A DNA stretch of 64,000 nucleotides from Rhizobium gallicum bv. gallicum R602sp (lineage in GTDB: Bacteria; Pseudomonadota; Alphaproteobacteria; Rhizobiales; Rhizobiaceae), in NCBI RefSeq assembly GCF_000816845.1, contig NZ_CP006880.1:2356001-2420000 (forward strand), given 5' to 3'. Shown here piece after piece: positions 5,739-63,143 of the stretch; positions within the stretch are counted from its first letter, which is position 1; every line of letters starts with the position of its first letter. Both the position numbers and the translations under genes were made by a program. The notes below the pieces were generated by a model. That model ran no database searches, had not been told where the DNA came from, and saw only the letters and a program-made list of their open reading frames with translations.

Positions 5739-6694
5739 GAGACGTCTTCCTCTCAACCGCGATCAAGTTCGGTCTCTTCGCGATCGTCGCGATATTGATC
5801 CCGGTCTCCGCCCCCGCCTACGCTCTCCAGGAAGTGGCCATAGCGATCGCCTATGCCATCGCGATCCTCGGTCTGAACCTGCTGATGGGATATGCCGGGC
5901 AGATTTGCCTTGCCCAAGGGACGTTGTTCGGTGTCGGAGCCTATGTTACCGCGATCCTGAACGCCACCTACGGCGTCTCCCCGCTGGCTACGTTACCGGT
6001 CGCGGCTGCAGTCGCCGCCGCAGTCGGCCTGGTCATCGGCCTTCCGGCGCTCAGGCTCCAGGGTCTGCAGCTGGCCATTGTTACGTTCGGGATCGCAGCA
6101 GCTTTTCCACAACTGCTGCTCAAGATGGGAGGCCTGACCGGAGGCGTGTCCGGGCTTCCCATCGACGCGCCTGAAATGCCTGATGTCATGGCGGATGCCC
6201 CGGAGCTGTGGCTTTACCTCATCTCGCTGGCCTGCGCTGGTGTCGGTGCCTTGCTTGTCTCCCGAATGCTGTCCGGCGATGTCGGCCGCGCTCTCAGGGC
6301 GCAGCGCGACAACCCTCAGATTGCCCAAGCGCTCGGTGTGAACCTGACGCGTGCTCGACTGTGGGCATTCGCGGTCAGCTCGGCGCTCGCGGGACTGGGC
6401 GGTGGGGTGTTCGCGATCGTCAGCGGCTTCATCAGCCCGGAGTCTTTCCTGGCGATCCTGTCGATCAACATCGTGATCGGCAGCATTGTTGGCGGCGTCA
6501 CCAGCATCGTCGGCGCCTTCGTCGGCGGCCTGTTCATGGTGTTCGTTCCGAGTTGGGCATCCGACATCAACCTGAGCCTCGGCAATCTGATTTACGGCCT
6601 CGCGCTGATCCTCATCATGATGGTCGCACGCAACGGGGTGACTGGTTTCATCGAAAAATGGCTTTCGGTGATTTTTCGGAGGGCGGCCGGCTGA
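5735..6694 (+). CDS. livM: branched-chain amino acid-type ABC transporter permease (LivM)
   Basis: 319 residues with nine or so hydrophobic spans. Family landmarks are AIAILGLNLLMGYAGQICLAQG, split over the first conserved block, RLQGLQLAIVTFGIAAAFPQ, and the cytoplasmic loop RALRAQRDNPQIAQALGVN followed by AFAVSSALAGLGG. The start was set at the ATG overlapping the livH stop by four bases; a longer in-frame extension into livH is antisense-like and rejected. LivM usually ends a little longer than LivH, as here. It completes the membrane channel. The binding-protein gene follows after 31 bases. Confidence 0.93.
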   Translation: MRDVFLSTAIKFGLFAIVAILIPVSAPAYALQEVAIAIAYAIAILGLNLLMGYAGQICLAQGTLFGVGAYVTAILNATYGVSPLATLPVAAAVAAAVGLVIGLPALRLQGLQLAIVTFGIAAAFPQLLLKMGGLTGGVSGLPIDAPEMPDVMADAPELWLYLISLACAGVGALLVSRMLSGDVGRALRAQRDNPQIAQALGVNLTRARLWAFAVSSALAGLGGGVFAIVSGFISPESFLAILSINIVIGSIVGGVTSIVGAFVGGLFMVFVPSWASDINLSLGNLIYGLALILIMMVARNGVTGFIEKWLSVIFRRAAG

Positions 6695-6725
6695 AATGCC
6701 CGCCATCGAACTGGGAGGAATTGAA

Positions 6726-7958
6726 ATGAGACTGATCTCTATACTGAAGGGATGTAAGATGCAGCTGGGCGCGGCCGCGTTGCTCGCAGCCTCCCACGCA
6801 GGCGCCGCGGAACCGTCGCCAGGCATCACCGACGACACGATCAAGATTGGTGTGACAGGACCACTCACGGGTCCGGTCGCAGTCGTCGGGGGTGTCGCTG
6901 AAGGCATTCGGGCGCGTATCGAGCAGGGCAACGCCGAAGGCGGCGTCAAGATGGGCGACGGCAAGACACGCAAGATCGAACTCGTCATCGAGGACGATGG
7001 CCTTGATCCGCAGCGCACATTGGCGAATGTCCGCAAGATGGTGGAAAAAGACAAGGTCTTCGCCTTGGTCGGCACGGCTGCCACCCCGAACAACCTCGCA
7101 ATCGGACGTTACATCACCCAGAAGAAGGTTCCGAACGTCTTCATGTATTCCGGGGTTGTCTCCTTGAACGCTCCCGAGTGGGAGGTTGGCTTTGTGCCAT
7201 CGTTCTCGACCGAAGCGGATGCGTTCGCCAAGTATCTCGAAAACAACAAGCCCGACGCCAAGGTCGCCTTTTTGTATCTGAATACGGAAACGGGCCAAAC
7301 CTTCATGAAGGCCTTCGACCGCGCGATCGAGGATTCGACGATCAAGGTGCTCGAACGTCAACCCGTGACGTCCCAGGATCCGACAGTCGAGACTCAGCTC
7401 AACACGCTGAAGGCATCTGGCGCCGATACGCTGATTGTCATCGCCGCTCCTCGCCAGGGCGGCGAGGCCATCCGCTTCCAGTCCGAGAGCGGCTGGAAAC
7501 CGTTGACCCTGGTGACCAATCTTTCGTCTGCCTATCCGGTACTCCAGTCCGTTGGCCTGGAAAACGCAAAAGGCATCATCACCTCGGACTTTCTGAAGCC
7601 GATCATTAGCGACCAGAAGTCCGGTGATGAAGGCGTCGATCGCTATCTCGATGCCATCAAGGCGGCCAAAGTAAACTTCGTCTTCGCCAACACCATCGGC
7701 CAGACCGGCTACGCTATCGGTGATGCGCTTATTCAGTCGCTTGAAAAGCTTAAAGAACCGACTCGGGAGGAACTGATGAACGTCGTCCAAAATATGGACG
7801 GTTGGCAGAACCCGTTGCTTTTCGACGGCATCAAGATTTCGACCAAAGAGAAATCGGACTTATACCCGATCGAGGCACTTCAGCTCTATCAGTTTGATGG
7901 GCAGAAATACGTCCCGGTCGGCGGCGTCCTGGATTTCGAAGGAGATACACACGAGTAA
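6726..7958 (+). CDS. periplasmic substrate-binding protein of the Liv-type importer
   Basis: 410 residues. A short N-terminal basic stretch and hydrophobic core ending in HAGAAE form a signal peptide, so the mature protein is periplasmic. The mature part begins with ITDDTIKIGVTGPLTGP and has LIVIAAPRQGGEAIRFQSE, matching the Peripla_BP_6 (LivJ/LivK-like) fold with two lobes. The ATG at 6726 is preceded by GGGAGGA; an in-frame ATG 30 bases earlier lacks this and would spoil the signal peptide. In such systems the binding protein decides the ligand. Its position beside the P450 and LigJ-like genes suggests an aromatic acid, but true amino acids cannot be excluded. Last gene of the operon. Confidence 0.88.
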   Translation: MRLISILKGCKMQLGAAALLAASHAGAAEPSPGITDDTIKIGVTGPLTGPVAVVGGVAEGIRARIEQGNAEGGVKMGDGKTRKIELVIEDDGLDPQRTLANVRKMVEKDKVFALVGTAATPNNLAIGRYITQKKVPNVFMYSGVVSLNAPEWEVGFVPSFSTEADAFAKYLENNKPDAKVAFLYLNTETGQTFMKAFDRAIEDSTIKVLERQPVTSQDPTVETQLNTLKASGADTLIVIAAPRQGGEAIRFQSESGWKPLTLVTNLSSAYPVLQSVGLENAKGIITSDFLKPIISDQKSGDEGVDRYLDAIKAAKVNFVFANTIGQTGYAIGDALIQSLEKLKEPTREELMNVVQNMDGWQNPLLFDGIKISTKEKSDLYPIEALQLYQFDGQKYVPVGGVLDFEGDTHE

Positions 7959-19683: not shown

Positions 19684-19798
19684 GGCGGTGTGTGAGATGA
19701 GCGAAGACGATGTCATTCGCAGAAGGTAACGGCGCTTCGAAGAGCTGATGACCGAACTTGCCGGCGAGAGGGCCGCCGCACTCGAGAAGGAAACGTCA

Positions 19799-20875
19799 AT
19801 GTTTAGAGAGATCGACATCAGTTACCGGACGATGTTCGCGGAGCTAACGCAGCGGACGCTCGATCCGCAATTCGCGGCGGACTTCCCCTTGGAGGGATGG
19901 TTCGTGACCGTGACCGTCAAAGATCGCGACTACTGGTATTTCGATCTCCCTACCCCCGAGAGCAAGGACAAGCGAAGCTATGTCGGCCCACACTCCGACG
20001 AGGCGATCACGCAGCGGGTGAAGGCCCACAAGGAGATCAAGGACAACATCCGGGAGCGGAGGCGCATGGTTAGCACGCTGCGACGTGCTGGCCTCCCCGG
20101 TCCCGATCCCGTTGCGGGCGACGTCACGAAGGCCCTCGCCGACGCCGGATTGTTCCGGCTGCGGGCCGTCCTGATCGAGTCGGTGGCATTCAGCACCTAT
20201 GCGGGGATGCTCGGCGTTCGGCTGCCCTCGGCTGTAATGCAAACAGGCGACGCGGATTTCGCGCAGGATTTCGCGGTCTCGGCTGGGGTCCAAGACAGCC
20301 TGCCGCCGATCCTCGAAATCCTTCAATCAGTCGATCCAGAATTCCGAGCGGTTCCGCACCAGGCGGACAAAGCCAAAGTGGTCGCCTTCCAGAATGCGAA
20401 GGGCTACCGGGTGGAGTTCCTGACGGGAAACCGGGGATCGGACGAATACACGGGCAAGCCGTCTCCCATGCCTGCCCTCGGCGGCGCGTCGGCGGAAAAC
20501 CTGCGTTTCCTCGATTACCTGATCTACGAGCCCGTTCGCACGGTGCTTCTCTTCCGCGAAGGCGTGAACGTCCTCGTCCCGGCTCCCGAGAGGTATGCCG
20601 TCCACAAGCTGATCGTGTCGTCCAGAAGGCTCACGGACACGCTAGGACGTGTGAAGGCGGACAAGGACCTGTCGCAGGCCGCCTTGCTCTTCGAGGCCCT
20701 CGTGGAGACGCGCCATGGCGACGAGCTGGCCGATGCTTGGGAAGAAGCATGGGAGCGAGGGGATGCGTGGAAAGAGGGGATCGTCAGCGGCCTATCGAGA
20801 CTGCCCAAGAACGGGGTGAAAGCCCTCGAAAAGGTTCTCGGCCCCGAGGTGGTGGAAAGTCTGCTGAAAAGGTGA
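19799..20875 (+). CDS. GSU2403-type nucleotidyltransferase-fold protein
   Basis: 358 residues from the ATG at 19799, which has AAGGA 8 bases upstream; an ATG at 19748 would give 375 residues. The protein starts FREIDISYRTMFAELTQRTLD and contains RAVLIESVAFSTYAGMLGV, EFLTGNRGSDEY, LPALGG-like PMPALGGASAENLRFLDYL and the C-terminal block VPAPERYAVHKLIVSSRR, the pattern of the NTP_transf_8 (GSU2403) family. The fold relates it to minimal nucleotidyltransferases of AbiEii/MenT type, so a toxin or defence role is possible, but none is established. An in-frame frame beginning MSEDDVIRRR at 19697 is ended by TAA just before, suggesting the ancestral N-terminus was longer or that a short leader exists. 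It stands alone behind repeats R2 and R3 and a terminator. Confidence 0.75.
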   Translation: MFREIDISYRTMFAELTQRTLDPQFAADFPLEGWFVTVTVKDRDYWYFDLPTPESKDKRSYVGPHSDEAITQRVKAHKEIKDNIRERRRMVSTLRRAGLPGPDPVAGDVTKALADAGLFRLRAVLIESVAFSTYAGMLGVRLPSAVMQTGDADFAQDFAVSAGVQDSLPPILEILQSVDPEFRAVPHQADKAKVVAFQNAKGYRVEFLTGNRGSDEYTGKPSPMPALGGASAENLRFLDYLIYEPVRTVLLFREGVNVLVPAPERYAVHKLIVSSRRLTDTLGRVKADKDLSQAALLFEALVETRHGDELADAWEEAWERGDAWKEGIVSGLSRLPKNGVKALEKVLGPEVVESLLKR

Positions 20876-21814
20876 TCGAGCGATGATGATCGTGCCAAAG
20901 CGAATATCCCGGGTTCGAACATCGCGGACGCGGCGAACGATCACTATCGCTTATCGATGGTTGATTGATTTGGCGTCCGCTTGCGTGCTAGCCCTTCGTC
21001 ACTGGGCTTTCAGCGCTAAAATTTTGAGCTGATCAATTCGTCCTTGGCACAGGTCCTCTATAGCCTTCTGAAGTGATCGAGTGCGTTCTAGCAGCCACTC
21101 AAACGCCTCTCCCGTGATGCTGTAGTGGCTTGAATATCGGGCCTTAACGTAGGCTTCATTGATGACGTTGAACCAAGCCTCGTAGCGGGCGCGGTCCCGC
21201 GGCCAGACTTCTGCTAATTGCAGCGTTTGCTCCTCGGCGAGACCTCGCAAGAACGTTAGATTGTGAGATGCGGGACTGTAATTCGTCATGACAAGCAAAT
21301 GACAAGAATAAGACTGCTCTATTGCCTGATGAAGCAAAAACGCGCCCTCGTTCAGCATACGATCCCTGTAGGCTGTGTCCGCTAGCCTCGCCATATTCTT
21401 CGCCATTGAAAATTTTTCGGAGAAATGTCGAGCGGCGGCCTCATGAGCAGCGCTTGGAGCCAAAATCTTCGCCACAGGAAGCGGCTCTTGGTCGACTTCA
21501 TAAAGAACGATGCCATCTCGCCGAATATCCGAGAAGAAATGCTGCCCCTGATGTAGGGCGTCGCCAACCTCGCGCCGTGAATGGATGATCGGATTGACGA
21601 GAGTCTTTATGCCCCGGTCGCGCATCAACCGGTGCTTGGCAGCATACCAATATTCGGGATGGGTCGATTTCTTCGTGCTGACGATGATAAGGATATCGTA
21701 GTCCGAACGGTATCCTTTCATCGTATGGGGTTCATCAACCCAGGTGCCGCGGGGTAGAATAGGCGACTAGCGCCGTGCTGCCTCTCGGCAGTCGGTTTCT
21801 AGTCGCCTTTCGCC

Positions 21815-21850
21815 GAACCGGACGTGCATCTTTCGTTATGCATCCAGCTC
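21815..21850 (-). ncRNA. group II intron domain V
   Basis: On the minus strand the 36-base hairpin starts GAGCTGGATGCAT and ends ATGCACGTCCGGTTC, with the catalytic AGC triad in its 5' strand. It overlaps the last five codons of the maturase gene and is followed directly by the domain VI stem. Confidence 0.8.
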
Positions 21851-23353
21851 TCCAGAAGACATGGCAAAGTCAGGCGAGTCCATCCAATCGTAGCGGTACC
21901 GGCAGACCGAGGTCCACGCGAGCAGATGTTGTTCGACGTGGCCTTCGCGCCAGAGCCGCCGTGTCGGACGCCGCAGACTGCGGAGACGATGATCCCGCAA
22001 GATGTTGCGTCCGTGCGTCTTTGGGCGTTTCCGCCGCAACCAGAGCCAGAGCCTTTTGCCGACATACCAATCGAGATCGGTAAAGACGCGCCCGGCTCGG
22101 GCGCAGTAACGGTAGTAGTTCGCCCATCCGCGCAGGATGGGATTGATTTCCTGGAGTGTTTCGCCAAGACTGCGCGCTGTTCTTCGTGTGGTGCACAGTT
22201 TGGCTTTTCGACGCAGATCGGCGGCCTTGGCTTTGGGTATTTCAACGCGGGGGCCGTAGCCGTAGCGTTTGTCCCATCGCATCGTGACGTGGAAGCCAAG
22301 GAATTCGAATCCCTCCGTCACAGCCGTAACCCTTGTCTTTTCCGGCGACAATTCGAGGCCCGTGGTCAGGCGGAGGTGTTCGGCCAGTGCGGATTTTTCC
22401 GCCTTGGCATCGTCCTCCGTACCCGACACCATCACCACGAAGTCGTCGGCGTAGCGTACCGGATAGCAGATGCAGAGCCCAGCTCTGTCATCTCGCTGCC
22501 GCGCACCCCGCGCCGCTGCCACTCCATCACCTTGCCGGTGTGCTCGGATCTTGCTGCGGTGCTCGACCCACCGTTCGTAGCGTTCCTCAATCGCGCTGAG
22601 CGCGATATTGGCCAGCAGGGGTGAGATGATCCCGCCTTGAGGAGTGCCGGCTTCGGTGCGGATGAACTGGTCCTCCGCCATGACGCCGACTTTCAGGAAC
22701 TGTCCGATCAGCCTGACCACCCGACGGTCGGCCACGCGTAAGCGAACCCGGTTCATCAGAAGGTGATGGTTGATGTTATCGAAGCAGCCCTTGATGTCCC
22801 CCTCAATGATCCATGGATACGGCAGCCGGGTCCGGTGACCATCGCCGTCGCGCTTGCGCGGCTGGATAGTCGCCCGGATATTCTCCAAGGCGCCGTGCGT
22901 GCTTCGTCCGGGCCGGAACCCGTAGGAGACCCGCCAGAATTGCGCCTCGAAGATTGGCTCCAGAAGTATTTTGATGGCGCCTTGCACGACGCGATCCTTG
23001 ACCGTGGGGATGCCCAAGGGCCGGAATTGCCCCGGTTTTCCGGGCTTTGGGATGAGTTTGCGTCTCGCCGGGCTGGGCCGGTATGCGCCGGAGCGCAGTT
23101 CGGCTTGCAACTCTTTGAGAAAGCGATCTTCGCCCCTTTTCCGGATGCGACCCACAGTTAACCCGTCGATGCCAGCTGTTCGTCCACCTTTGTTCGAGGC
23201 GACGCGTCGCCAGGCGTGGCGCAGCGTGCGCGGATCGGTTAGCCAACCCCACATATCGCGCCATCCTTCGTCGGGATGTGCCTTACTCCACTGATAGAGT
23301 TTGCGCTGAACGCCGAGTATCCAGGCGAGATCCGCCCGGCGATCCATGTCCAC
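21836..23353 (-). CDS. ltrA: group II intron reverse transcriptase/maturase (LtrA family)
   Basis: 505 residues. The N-terminal RT-0 region and fingers (RRKLIPKPGKPGQFRPLGIP, VSYGFRPGRSTHGAL) lead to the palm with the catalytic YADD at 301-304 and the PQGGIISPLLANI block. Domain X/maturase follows (FEFLGFHVTMRW, NPILRGWANYYRYC, WLWLRRKRPK). There is no HNH endonuclease motif after domain X, so retrohoming would have to use the replication fork, as for other En-lacking introns. The enzyme splices its host intron RNA and copies it into DNA. The gene is intact and lies entirely inside the intron, its end overlapping domain V. Confidence 0.95.
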   Translation of the reverse strand: MDMDRRADLAWILGVQRKLYQWSKAHPDEGWRDMWGWLTDPRTLRHAWRRVASNKGGRTAGIDGLTVGRIRKRGEDRFLKELQAELRSGAYRPSPARRKLIPKPGKPGQFRPLGIPTVKDRVVQGAIKILLEPIFEAQFWRVSYGFRPGRSTHGALENIRATIQPRKRDGDGHRTRLPYPWIIEGDIKGCFDNINHHLLMNRVRLRVADRRVVRLIGQFLKVGVMAEDQFIRTEAGTPQGGIISPLLANIALSAIEERYERWVEHRSKIRAHRQGDGVAAARGARQRDDRAGLCICYPVRYADDFVVMVSGTEDDAKAEKSALAEHLRLTTGLELSPEKTRVTAVTEGFEFLGFHVTMRWDKRYGYGPRVEIPKAKAADLRRKAKLCTTRRTARSLGETLQEINPILRGWANYYRYCARAGRVFTDLDWYVGKRLWLWLRRKRPKTHGRNILRDHRLRSLRRPTRRLWREGHVEQHLLAWTSVCRYRYDWMDSPDFAMSSGELDA

Positions 23354-24229
23354 AGATCCTTCCTCCGTCGTGCAAGTCTATCGTCTTCCTGCTTCCCTTC
23401 GCCCTGTGCGCGGCTTTCCCGCACTCCGACTACTACGGAAGCTCCGCCCTCGGGTTCGTCCTTCTCCGGCCGTCGCGGCTAGCCCAGTTCCTGCTGGGCG
23501 GGCGATCCGAGTTCCCGTGTTCCGGTTCCTAACCTTTGTGTCGGTAGGTGGTGAGCTCTACCCCTGACAATGCGGGAGGAAAGGTTATGGAGAGTGCCCC
23601 TTCCTCGGGTGCGCCCTCGGCGCATCCAGCAGCGAAGAATTACAAGCCCCGCCGCTTCAGATTGCTTGGCCCTCTCGCCATCACGATGTAAGGGCGTGGT
23701 TCGGTAAATACAGAGGCTTCCAGCACTCACTTCGTTGCCTCACCATAGACACTGCGGTAGCCCGGCCTACGGCTGATGGGCCGTATCCGTTTCATTTAAG
23801 ATCGATCTGCTGATGACACTCCGCCGGCGACACCCGGCCGAGCTTTTCGATCCCCTTCCGTCTACTACTCTCTGTAGAGGGGTGACATTCCAGTCACCGG
23901 TCAAGAACCAGTTAGTTTGGGAGGTTGCCTTTATTGCATGATAACCTCCCGCGCCTTCACGGCGCACCGTAAGAGCCGAAGAGGATGATCTTCCAGATGC
24001 GGCCCTTCTTCTTGAATTCCGCCTCCCCTCCCTTCAACGCGTTCTCGAATTCCTCATGAATGATCTCGACAACACGCGCCAGTTCGCGCTGCTTCTTTTC
24101 CGGCAGATGATCGAGGCTCGACTTCATCAAGGGTAAAACTCCCGTTGAATCATTTTCTTAGCGCATCCACTGACCTGCGCGCCACCGCAATTTCTGAAGG
24201 GAAACGGCATGAACCTGGCCGGTTCGCGA

Positions 24230-63016: not shown

Positions 63017-63137
63017 CAATAAAAAGCCCGGCGCGGGAGGAGGTGCGCCGGGCTTCGATAATGACTGGCAGCTTGGGAGGAGGAGTGCTGCCCGTCGGAC
63101 CGAAGCGGCTCGGGAGGAGGGTGAATCGCTTCGGACC
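63017..63137 (-). ncRNA. cuckoo/CcsR-type sRNA: three CCUCCUCCC-loop hairpins
   Basis: On the minus strand three stem-loops follow each other: stem CCGAAGCG/CGCTTCGG (63134-63100), stem GGCAGC/GCTGCC (63092-63067) and stem AAGCCCGGCGC/GCGCCGGGCTT (63055-63024). Each loop contains the identical CCTCCTCCC (63120-63112, 63083-63075, 63043-63035). The last hairpin is followed by TTTTTATT and so is a rho-independent terminator. CCUCCUCCC loops are the mark of the cuckoo (CcsR) RNAs of alphaproteobacteria, stress-induced and able to mask ribosome sites. A heat-shock-like promoter stands just upstream. No DUF1127 gene, the usual partner, is seen. Confidence 0.75.
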
Positions 63138-63143
63138 ATTAAA

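Follow-up and report, generated by a model that had tools for sequence, protein, structure and literature searches.

Mobile group II introns whose encoded protein has no endonuclease are distributed over classes A, C, D, E, F and g1-g4, and the S. meliloti intron Sr.me.I2 has been placed in g1 by a reverse transcriptase (RT) tree (Toro and Martinez-Abarca, 2013, PMC3552965). For the introns of T. elongatus, a good match between EBS and IBS was taken as retrohoming, and divergence of the EBS was described as opening new targets (Mohr et al., 2010, PMC2882425, in the part of the paper available). In bacteria, housekeeping genes are rarely the site of a group II intron, according to the accessible text of Qu et al. 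(2018, PMC6003770). The same text reports that spliced group II introns reopen ligated exons and that host mRNA is lowered, in L. lactis by EBS-IBS retargeting. As far as the available portions of the protein literature go, HEPN domains fused to MNT domains are typically without predicted RNase residues (Anantharaman et al., 2013, PMC3710099), and the MNT motif is GSx10DxD (PMC7641770).

The window analysed here, 64,000 nucleotides of R. gallicum bv. gallicum R602sp (NZ_CP006880.1, positions 2,356,001 to 2,420,000), carries, according to a preliminary description, a group II intron that interrupts a nucleotidyltransferase-HEPN gene with exact bounds. Rfam and homologue evidence bore out both the element and its coordinates. 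The intron occupies 21754..23967 on the minus strand (2,214 nt, ends GTGCGCC...TATTCTAC), and its termini, GTGCG...TAC, match the group II rule of 5′ GTGYG and 3′ AY. Domains V and VI were recognised by RF00029 at 21852-21754 (45.3 bits, cutoff 40); domain V lies at 21815..21850 (−) in the Rfam alignment, and domain VI, with the intron 3′ end, occupies 21754..21807 (−). RNA folding showed that the last 107 nt (21754-21860), which contain both domains, fold far above shuffles (z −5.15), and the A at 21760 (−7) was unpaired, as predicted for a branch point, where a bulged A at −7 or −8 is expected. The intron-encoded protein (IEP; 21836..23353, −) has a GTG start and a frame that is intact over 505 codons (505 aa). 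Its translation contains YADD and matches TIGR04416 (355.9 bits, cutoff 300), PF00078 and PF08388, with a reverse transcriptase and a maturase domain. About 54 residues follow the maturase domain, no endonuclease domain was found among the family matches of the IEP, and its PDB relatives show only RT of the group II type. The match goes beyond chance, and window 21754-23967 (−) is a complete group II intron. A second copy was not found in its own genome (7.3 Mb, four contigs), in which the one match to the IEP ORF was the ORF itself.

Exon 1 (the 5′ exon; 23968..24127, −) comprises 160 nt in open frame, from ATG to GGC TCT TAC G, that is, 53 codons and 1 nt. Exon 2 (the 3′ exon; 20999..21753, −) comprises 755 nt that encode the rest of the nucleotidyltransferase domain and the HEPN domain (PF05168, 22.4 bits, cutoff 22), with 250 codons open after the split codon and a TGA stop. 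The sum of 160 and 755 is 915 nt, or 3 × 305 codons (304 aa and a stop), in agreement with the exactly 305 codons claimed earlier for the joined frame, and this is also the length of the gene in the closest intron-free relative, R. gallicum M101 (L011; 304 aa, exon 2 95.6% identical). Exon 1 is 96% identical to exon 1 of two other intron-free genes (L012 and L013).

The joint was judged from intron-free homologues rather than by joining exon letters; a search for such homologues had been proposed in the preliminary description. The result showed that exon-1-like and exon-2-like BLAST pieces touch at the exact joint base in four genes (L009, L012, L013 and L014), and that the pieces in two others (L011 and L015) are positioned in agreement with the same base. 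All six run through the joint in one frame of 300-317 aa, and a seventh gene (L008) gave a single-frame alignment of 298 residues across it. Because the two parts abut at exactly the same base in genes that have no intron, the joined frame is ancestral. The preliminary description had placed the site in the GS active-site loop. It lies directly behind the GS motif; 7/7 intron-free genes examined read GSYARG at the joint, the insertion point being the codon after GSY. Annotated members of the family are named ‘nucleotidyltransferase and HEPN domain-containing protein’. At the window locus itself, the intron is absent in R. etli 8C-3 (L014) and present in R. gallicum IE4872 (L002), and the flanking DNA is about 94% identical to both.

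The preliminary description had also suggested a toxic or defence product, a label that now appears doubtful. MNT and HEPN parts form a single fused ORF in the intron-free homologues and not two genes, the spacing from GS to DxD is 18 residues in 7/7 homologues (counted by hand), not GSx10DxD, and no Rx4-6H was found in the HEPN part of window exon 2, in which RYSSH (Rx3H) is a near miss. PADLOC, applied to three intron-free homologues and the neighbouring gene, gave only weak matches, the best being PDC-S09 with 29.4 bits. With no Rx4-6H in window exon 2 and such PADLOC matches, toxin or defence was rejected as the main claim. Absence of the motif does not seem to be family-wide, since an Rx6H match occurs at a shared place (residue 188-189) in four of seven intron-free homologues, two of which have more; RYSxH occurs at 259-260 in six of seven. 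Because the window HEPN part is without Rx4-6H and fused HEPN domains are typically RNase-less in the available text of PMC3710099, the product is best read as a nucleotidyltransferase whose HEPN domain binds substrate or is regulatory, rather than as an established toxin. A drug-resistance nucleotidyltransferase was rejected as well, no such family having matched in Pfam, or in NCBIfam for the 3′ exon. Two further features of the window were noted: a second nucleotidyltransferase gene at 19748-20875 (+; PF12281 NTP_transf_8, 245.6 bits), which adjoins the split gene and is convergent with it, and the alphaproteobacterial small RNA ar14 at 63019-63139 (−; RF02344, 104.7 bits).

A homologue of the gene family was present at E ≤ 1e-60 in 73 of 148 genus genomes, and the window genome holds three that are intron-free and full-length, besides one fragment. 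Nucleotidyltransferase-HEPN genes with a near copy of the intron were found in at least 2 of the 148 genomes (G000 and G297); G524 additionally has a damaged copy, and relics occur both there and in G523. At least 19 of 148 genomes gave some DNA match to the intron, many of these matches being short and inside the ORFs of other introns, and a family sample gave some match in at least 29 of 394 genomes; the genus and family searches scored two candidates per genome, so that these intron counts are lower bounds.

The same intron (about 94% identical, or 97-99% at the ends) was found in the same codon of six gene copies, namely the window, R. gallicum IE4872 (L002; intron 94.0% identical), N. galegae VafX2 (L003) and three divergent paralogues in one genome of the same genus (G297). 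In G297, three 5′ and three 3′ intron ends were detected, each at the end of a contig and flanked by a nucleotidyltransferase-HEPN exon, so that 3/3 genes found are occupied, and no unoccupied copy was found in that genome. The G297 introns, known by their ends only, are mutually identical over 117/117 and 125/125 nt, while their 3′ exons differ pairwise at dS 1.6-1.8. Because of this disparity the pattern reads as movement and not descent, that is, as recent spread within one genome. The disparity also stands against a single ancient insertion inherited by all occupied copies without repeated homing, as does the N. galegae copy, whose intron is 93.7% identical and whose exon 1 merely 71%. The window and L002 share a locus and a similar divergence of intron and flank, and these two may well share one insertion; for the set as a whole, inheritance from a single event is highly improbable. 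A seventh copy (L059, G524:C115) has a 94% identical intron 5′ part and an exon 1 without its last 28 nt, and therefore keeps no IBS. In addition, remnants of 140 nt from the 5′ end of the intron (83-85%) adjoin degraded nucleotidyltransferase-like DNA at G523:C2:581343-581482 (L062) and G524:C107:179196-179335 (L077).

Both exons are open in four of the six occupied copies, including the window and all three in G297. They are decayed in the other two: L002 is out of frame in the HEPN part, and L003 in exon 1, its IEP being out of frame too. Comparison of the window with L002 gave dS 0.177 and dN/dS 0.12 for the IEP and dS 0.156 for one flanking gene; since the two dS values are similar, the simplest reading would be that the intron has been retained at this locus since the two lineages split. 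For exon 1, dN/dS was 0.10, from only 7 synonymous and 3 non-synonymous changes, and for exon 2 against the intron-free L011 it was 0.17. The window gene is a mosaic, exon 1 being nearest to L012 and L013 and exon 2 to L011. About 250 nt into exon 2, the similarity of L012 and L013 to the window drops abruptly, a pattern that suggests swapping of HEPN halves between genes with conserved N-terminal halves. Since the resemblance to L011 is seen in exon 2 but not in exon 1 or the upstream flank, the window's second exon was probably exchanged by recombination, perhaps after the insertion, and its open frame may therefore be younger than the intron.

Such an exchange would fit the alternative that the intron no longer splices and that its host gene is a pseudogene, disrupted by an element that can still move, the open exons reflecting recent insertion or exchange of exon 2. 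The two out-of-frame copies and the loss of the IBS in L059 point in the same direction, and loss of the gene could be tolerated because three further full-length intron-free copies exist in the genome. However, the predicted EBS1 and EBS2, domains V and VI and the IEP are all intact, the IEP shows the low dN/dS given above, and both exons are fully open in all three G297 copies as well as in the window. We therefore consider a non-splicing intron unlikely and prefer one that splices.

The search for relatives showed that full-length introns 72-77% identical to this one sit in conserved motif codons of IS110, IS256, AbiEii and DinB genes. Among plasmid records, 46 of 72,556 matched the exon-intron region, and the introns were read in 11 records, among the 20 matches listed. 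Altogether 19 full-length introns were obtained, counted as loci and not as independent events and with both ends read to the extent that the contigs reached. Their hosts are nucleotidyltransferase-HEPN (3), IS110 (3), IS256 (10), AbiEii (2) and DinB (1) genes. In 19/19, the last base of the 5′ exon is a G that opens a codon. The insertion motif (the slash marking the intron) is ..GLD/ in IS110, W[IV]D/A in IS256, SEDI/D in AbiEii and HVDMD/A in DinB, motifs that we take to hold catalytic residues. The host families are backed by Pfam on seven single exons. Partial copies added further cases in IS110 (L023 and L048), IS256 (L022, L045, L051, L054 and L061) and DinB (L060).

Several of these copies are damaged. 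In the full-length DinB case (L020), a cut at the canonical AC leaves the exons out of register by one base, so this copy could be damaged or its 3′ end wrongly assigned; L060, also in DinB, is in frame and seen on the 3′ side only. Among the transposase hosts, the 3′ exon is open for merely 57 aa in L004, 43 in L005 and 70 in L007, and L118 has an early stop. The IEP is not a single open frame in L006, L007, L075 and L117. The target count did not take in distant introns with 65-66% identity in the ORF (L030, L033, L064, L065, L078, L079 and similar), in whose 3′ flanks no recognisable gene was found by eye, nor the partial copies L024, L025, L027, L028, L031, L032 and L057, short IEP-only matches, the IEP relatives L085 and L086, and L029, a 255-nt partial copy (73%) within a frame resembling IS110, the exon of which has C instead of G as its last base. 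One of these partial copies (L057, G297:C8:99458-99660) is the 3′ end of a 73% related intron, downstream of which no gene was recognised, and it possibly represents a further target. L085 (G690) and L086 (G830) are 48-51% identical to the IEP, one of them with an internal TGA. On E. adhaerens pD (L007), two CDS with one protein accession (ltrA; 562-1869 and 6611-7918) flank the IS256-inserted intron.

Choice of target was examined by scanning exon positions against intron columns in 14 of the 19 full-length introns, that is, all except L117-L121. Counted unweighted over the 14 introns, the best pairing was that of exon −1 to −6 with intron 324-329, the predicted EBS1; exon −9 to −14 with intron 264-269, the predicted EBS2, came third, with the top Watson-Crick count among the 25 pairings listed. 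When the five targets were weighted equally, EBS2 ranked first, its neighbour second and EBS1 third. When target exons were re-assigned among the five groups, 1 of 120 orders gave a sum as high as that observed, the true order being among the 120. In the window, EBS1 is predicted at 23639..23644 (−) and EBS2 at 23699..23704 (−), and their partners in exon 1 are IBS1 at 23968..23973 (−), its last 6 nt, and IBS2 at 23976..23981 (−). Window IBS1 forms 4 Watson-Crick pairs and 1 G-U pair of 6, with one mismatch, and IBS2 pairs at 5/6; across the nucleotidyltransferase-HEPN group, IBS1 scored 3.5-4.5 of 6 and IBS2 4-5 (G-U counted as half), a good but imperfect fit. The predicted exon-binding sequences vary with the target family. 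Because the same site is occupied in several genes and the EBS changes with the target, these introns are best read as a retrohoming lineage that switches target through EBS/IBS pairing.

A stronger version holds that the lineage is specialised, through change of EBS1 and EBS2, in catalytic-motif codons of unrelated nucleotidyl-transfer enzymes (transposases, polymerase IV, AbiEii and nucleotidyltransferase-HEPN), each codon being split after its first base, and that the intron RNA, once spliced, in addition cuts transcripts of paralogues that have no intron, as a family-wide repressor in trans. We regard this version as improbable. The main reading, that a mobile intron entered a fused nucleotidyltransferase-HEPN gene by retrohoming, at the codon that follows the GS motif, has in our estimate a probability of roughly 0.87 as a whole. 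According to it, the intron RNA would recognise the 5′ exon by EBS1-IBS1 and EBS2-IBS2 pairing, and its own reverse transcriptase/maturase would aid splicing and copy the intron into further targets. Exact boundaries, intact intron parts and exons, a site shared by divergent genes, the recent spread within G297 and target-dependent pairing are read from the DNA itself; we infer in addition that splicing takes place in the cell and that the protein is made from the joined message, probably at a lowered level.

The expected effect on the host gene is likely a lower expression rather than a switch, because group II introns, once spliced, can open the joined exons again (Qu et al., 2018, in the text available). 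A regulatory switch, in which splicing or trans-targeting of related mRNAs would set the level of the gene family, could draw on the L. lactis precedent of host mRNA lowered by EBS-IBS retargeting (PMC6003770, same portion). It could also draw on one intron-free paralogue in the window genome (L087), which keeps all six letters of IBS2 (CTTCGG) and four of six of IBS1, its IBS1, CCTATG, being that of the occupied N. galegae gene; a trans effect of the intron on a paralogue is thus possible. The other two full-length paralogues in the window genome read GSYSRG. Against a switch, the intron is rare relative to the family, with at least 2 of 148 genus genomes against a homologue in 73 of 148, and signal-regulated splicing is, to our knowledge, not the rule for such introns. 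We hold a switch to be quite unlikely and keep to an intron that splices and probably lowers the expression of its host.

The repeated homing is more notable than the single split gene: in a widespread family of accessory genes, a single conserved codon has been hit time and again by this intron, and four of six copies keep both exons open. This offers a natural test system for whether the splicing of group II introns is efficient enough for them to reside in genes, for whether spliced intron RNA represses paralogues, and for how EBS changes move a ribozyme from transposase to cellular-enzyme targets. Neither a group II intron in a HEPN gene nor a report of this intron lineage was found in the open-access literature searched by title and start of abstract.

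Compared with known systems, the element resembles the endonuclease-less mobile introns (PMC3552965) in its RT and maturase, its GTGCG 5′ end and its domain V/VI, and likewise in having about 54 residues after the maturase domain and no endonuclease match. It shares with the T. elongatus introns (Mohr et al., 2010, PMC2882425, in the available part) close relatives that form families with different EBS and targets, insertion elements included. In contrast to the few introns within genes reported in that part, 19/19 full-length introns here lie inside reading frames, in five families and at conserved motifs, and the DinB and nucleotidyltransferase-HEPN hosts are by annotation neither transposases nor TA toxins. 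Like Ll.LtrB in its relaxase gene (Qu et al., 2018, PMC6003770, as far as the accessible text describes it), the intron sits in a protein-coding gene of accessory DNA and its spliced product would be the host mRNA; unlike it, the host is a nucleotidyltransferase-HEPN gene. With the HepT/MntA (HEPN/MNT) toxin-antitoxin systems, as described in the portions of PMC7641770 and PMC3710099 available, that gene shares related nucleotidyltransferase and HEPN domains, but differs in having them in one protein, in GSx18DxD instead of GSx10DxD, and in a window exon 2 without Rx4-6H. The intron is an element of an ordinary kind with an unusual and repeated choice of site.
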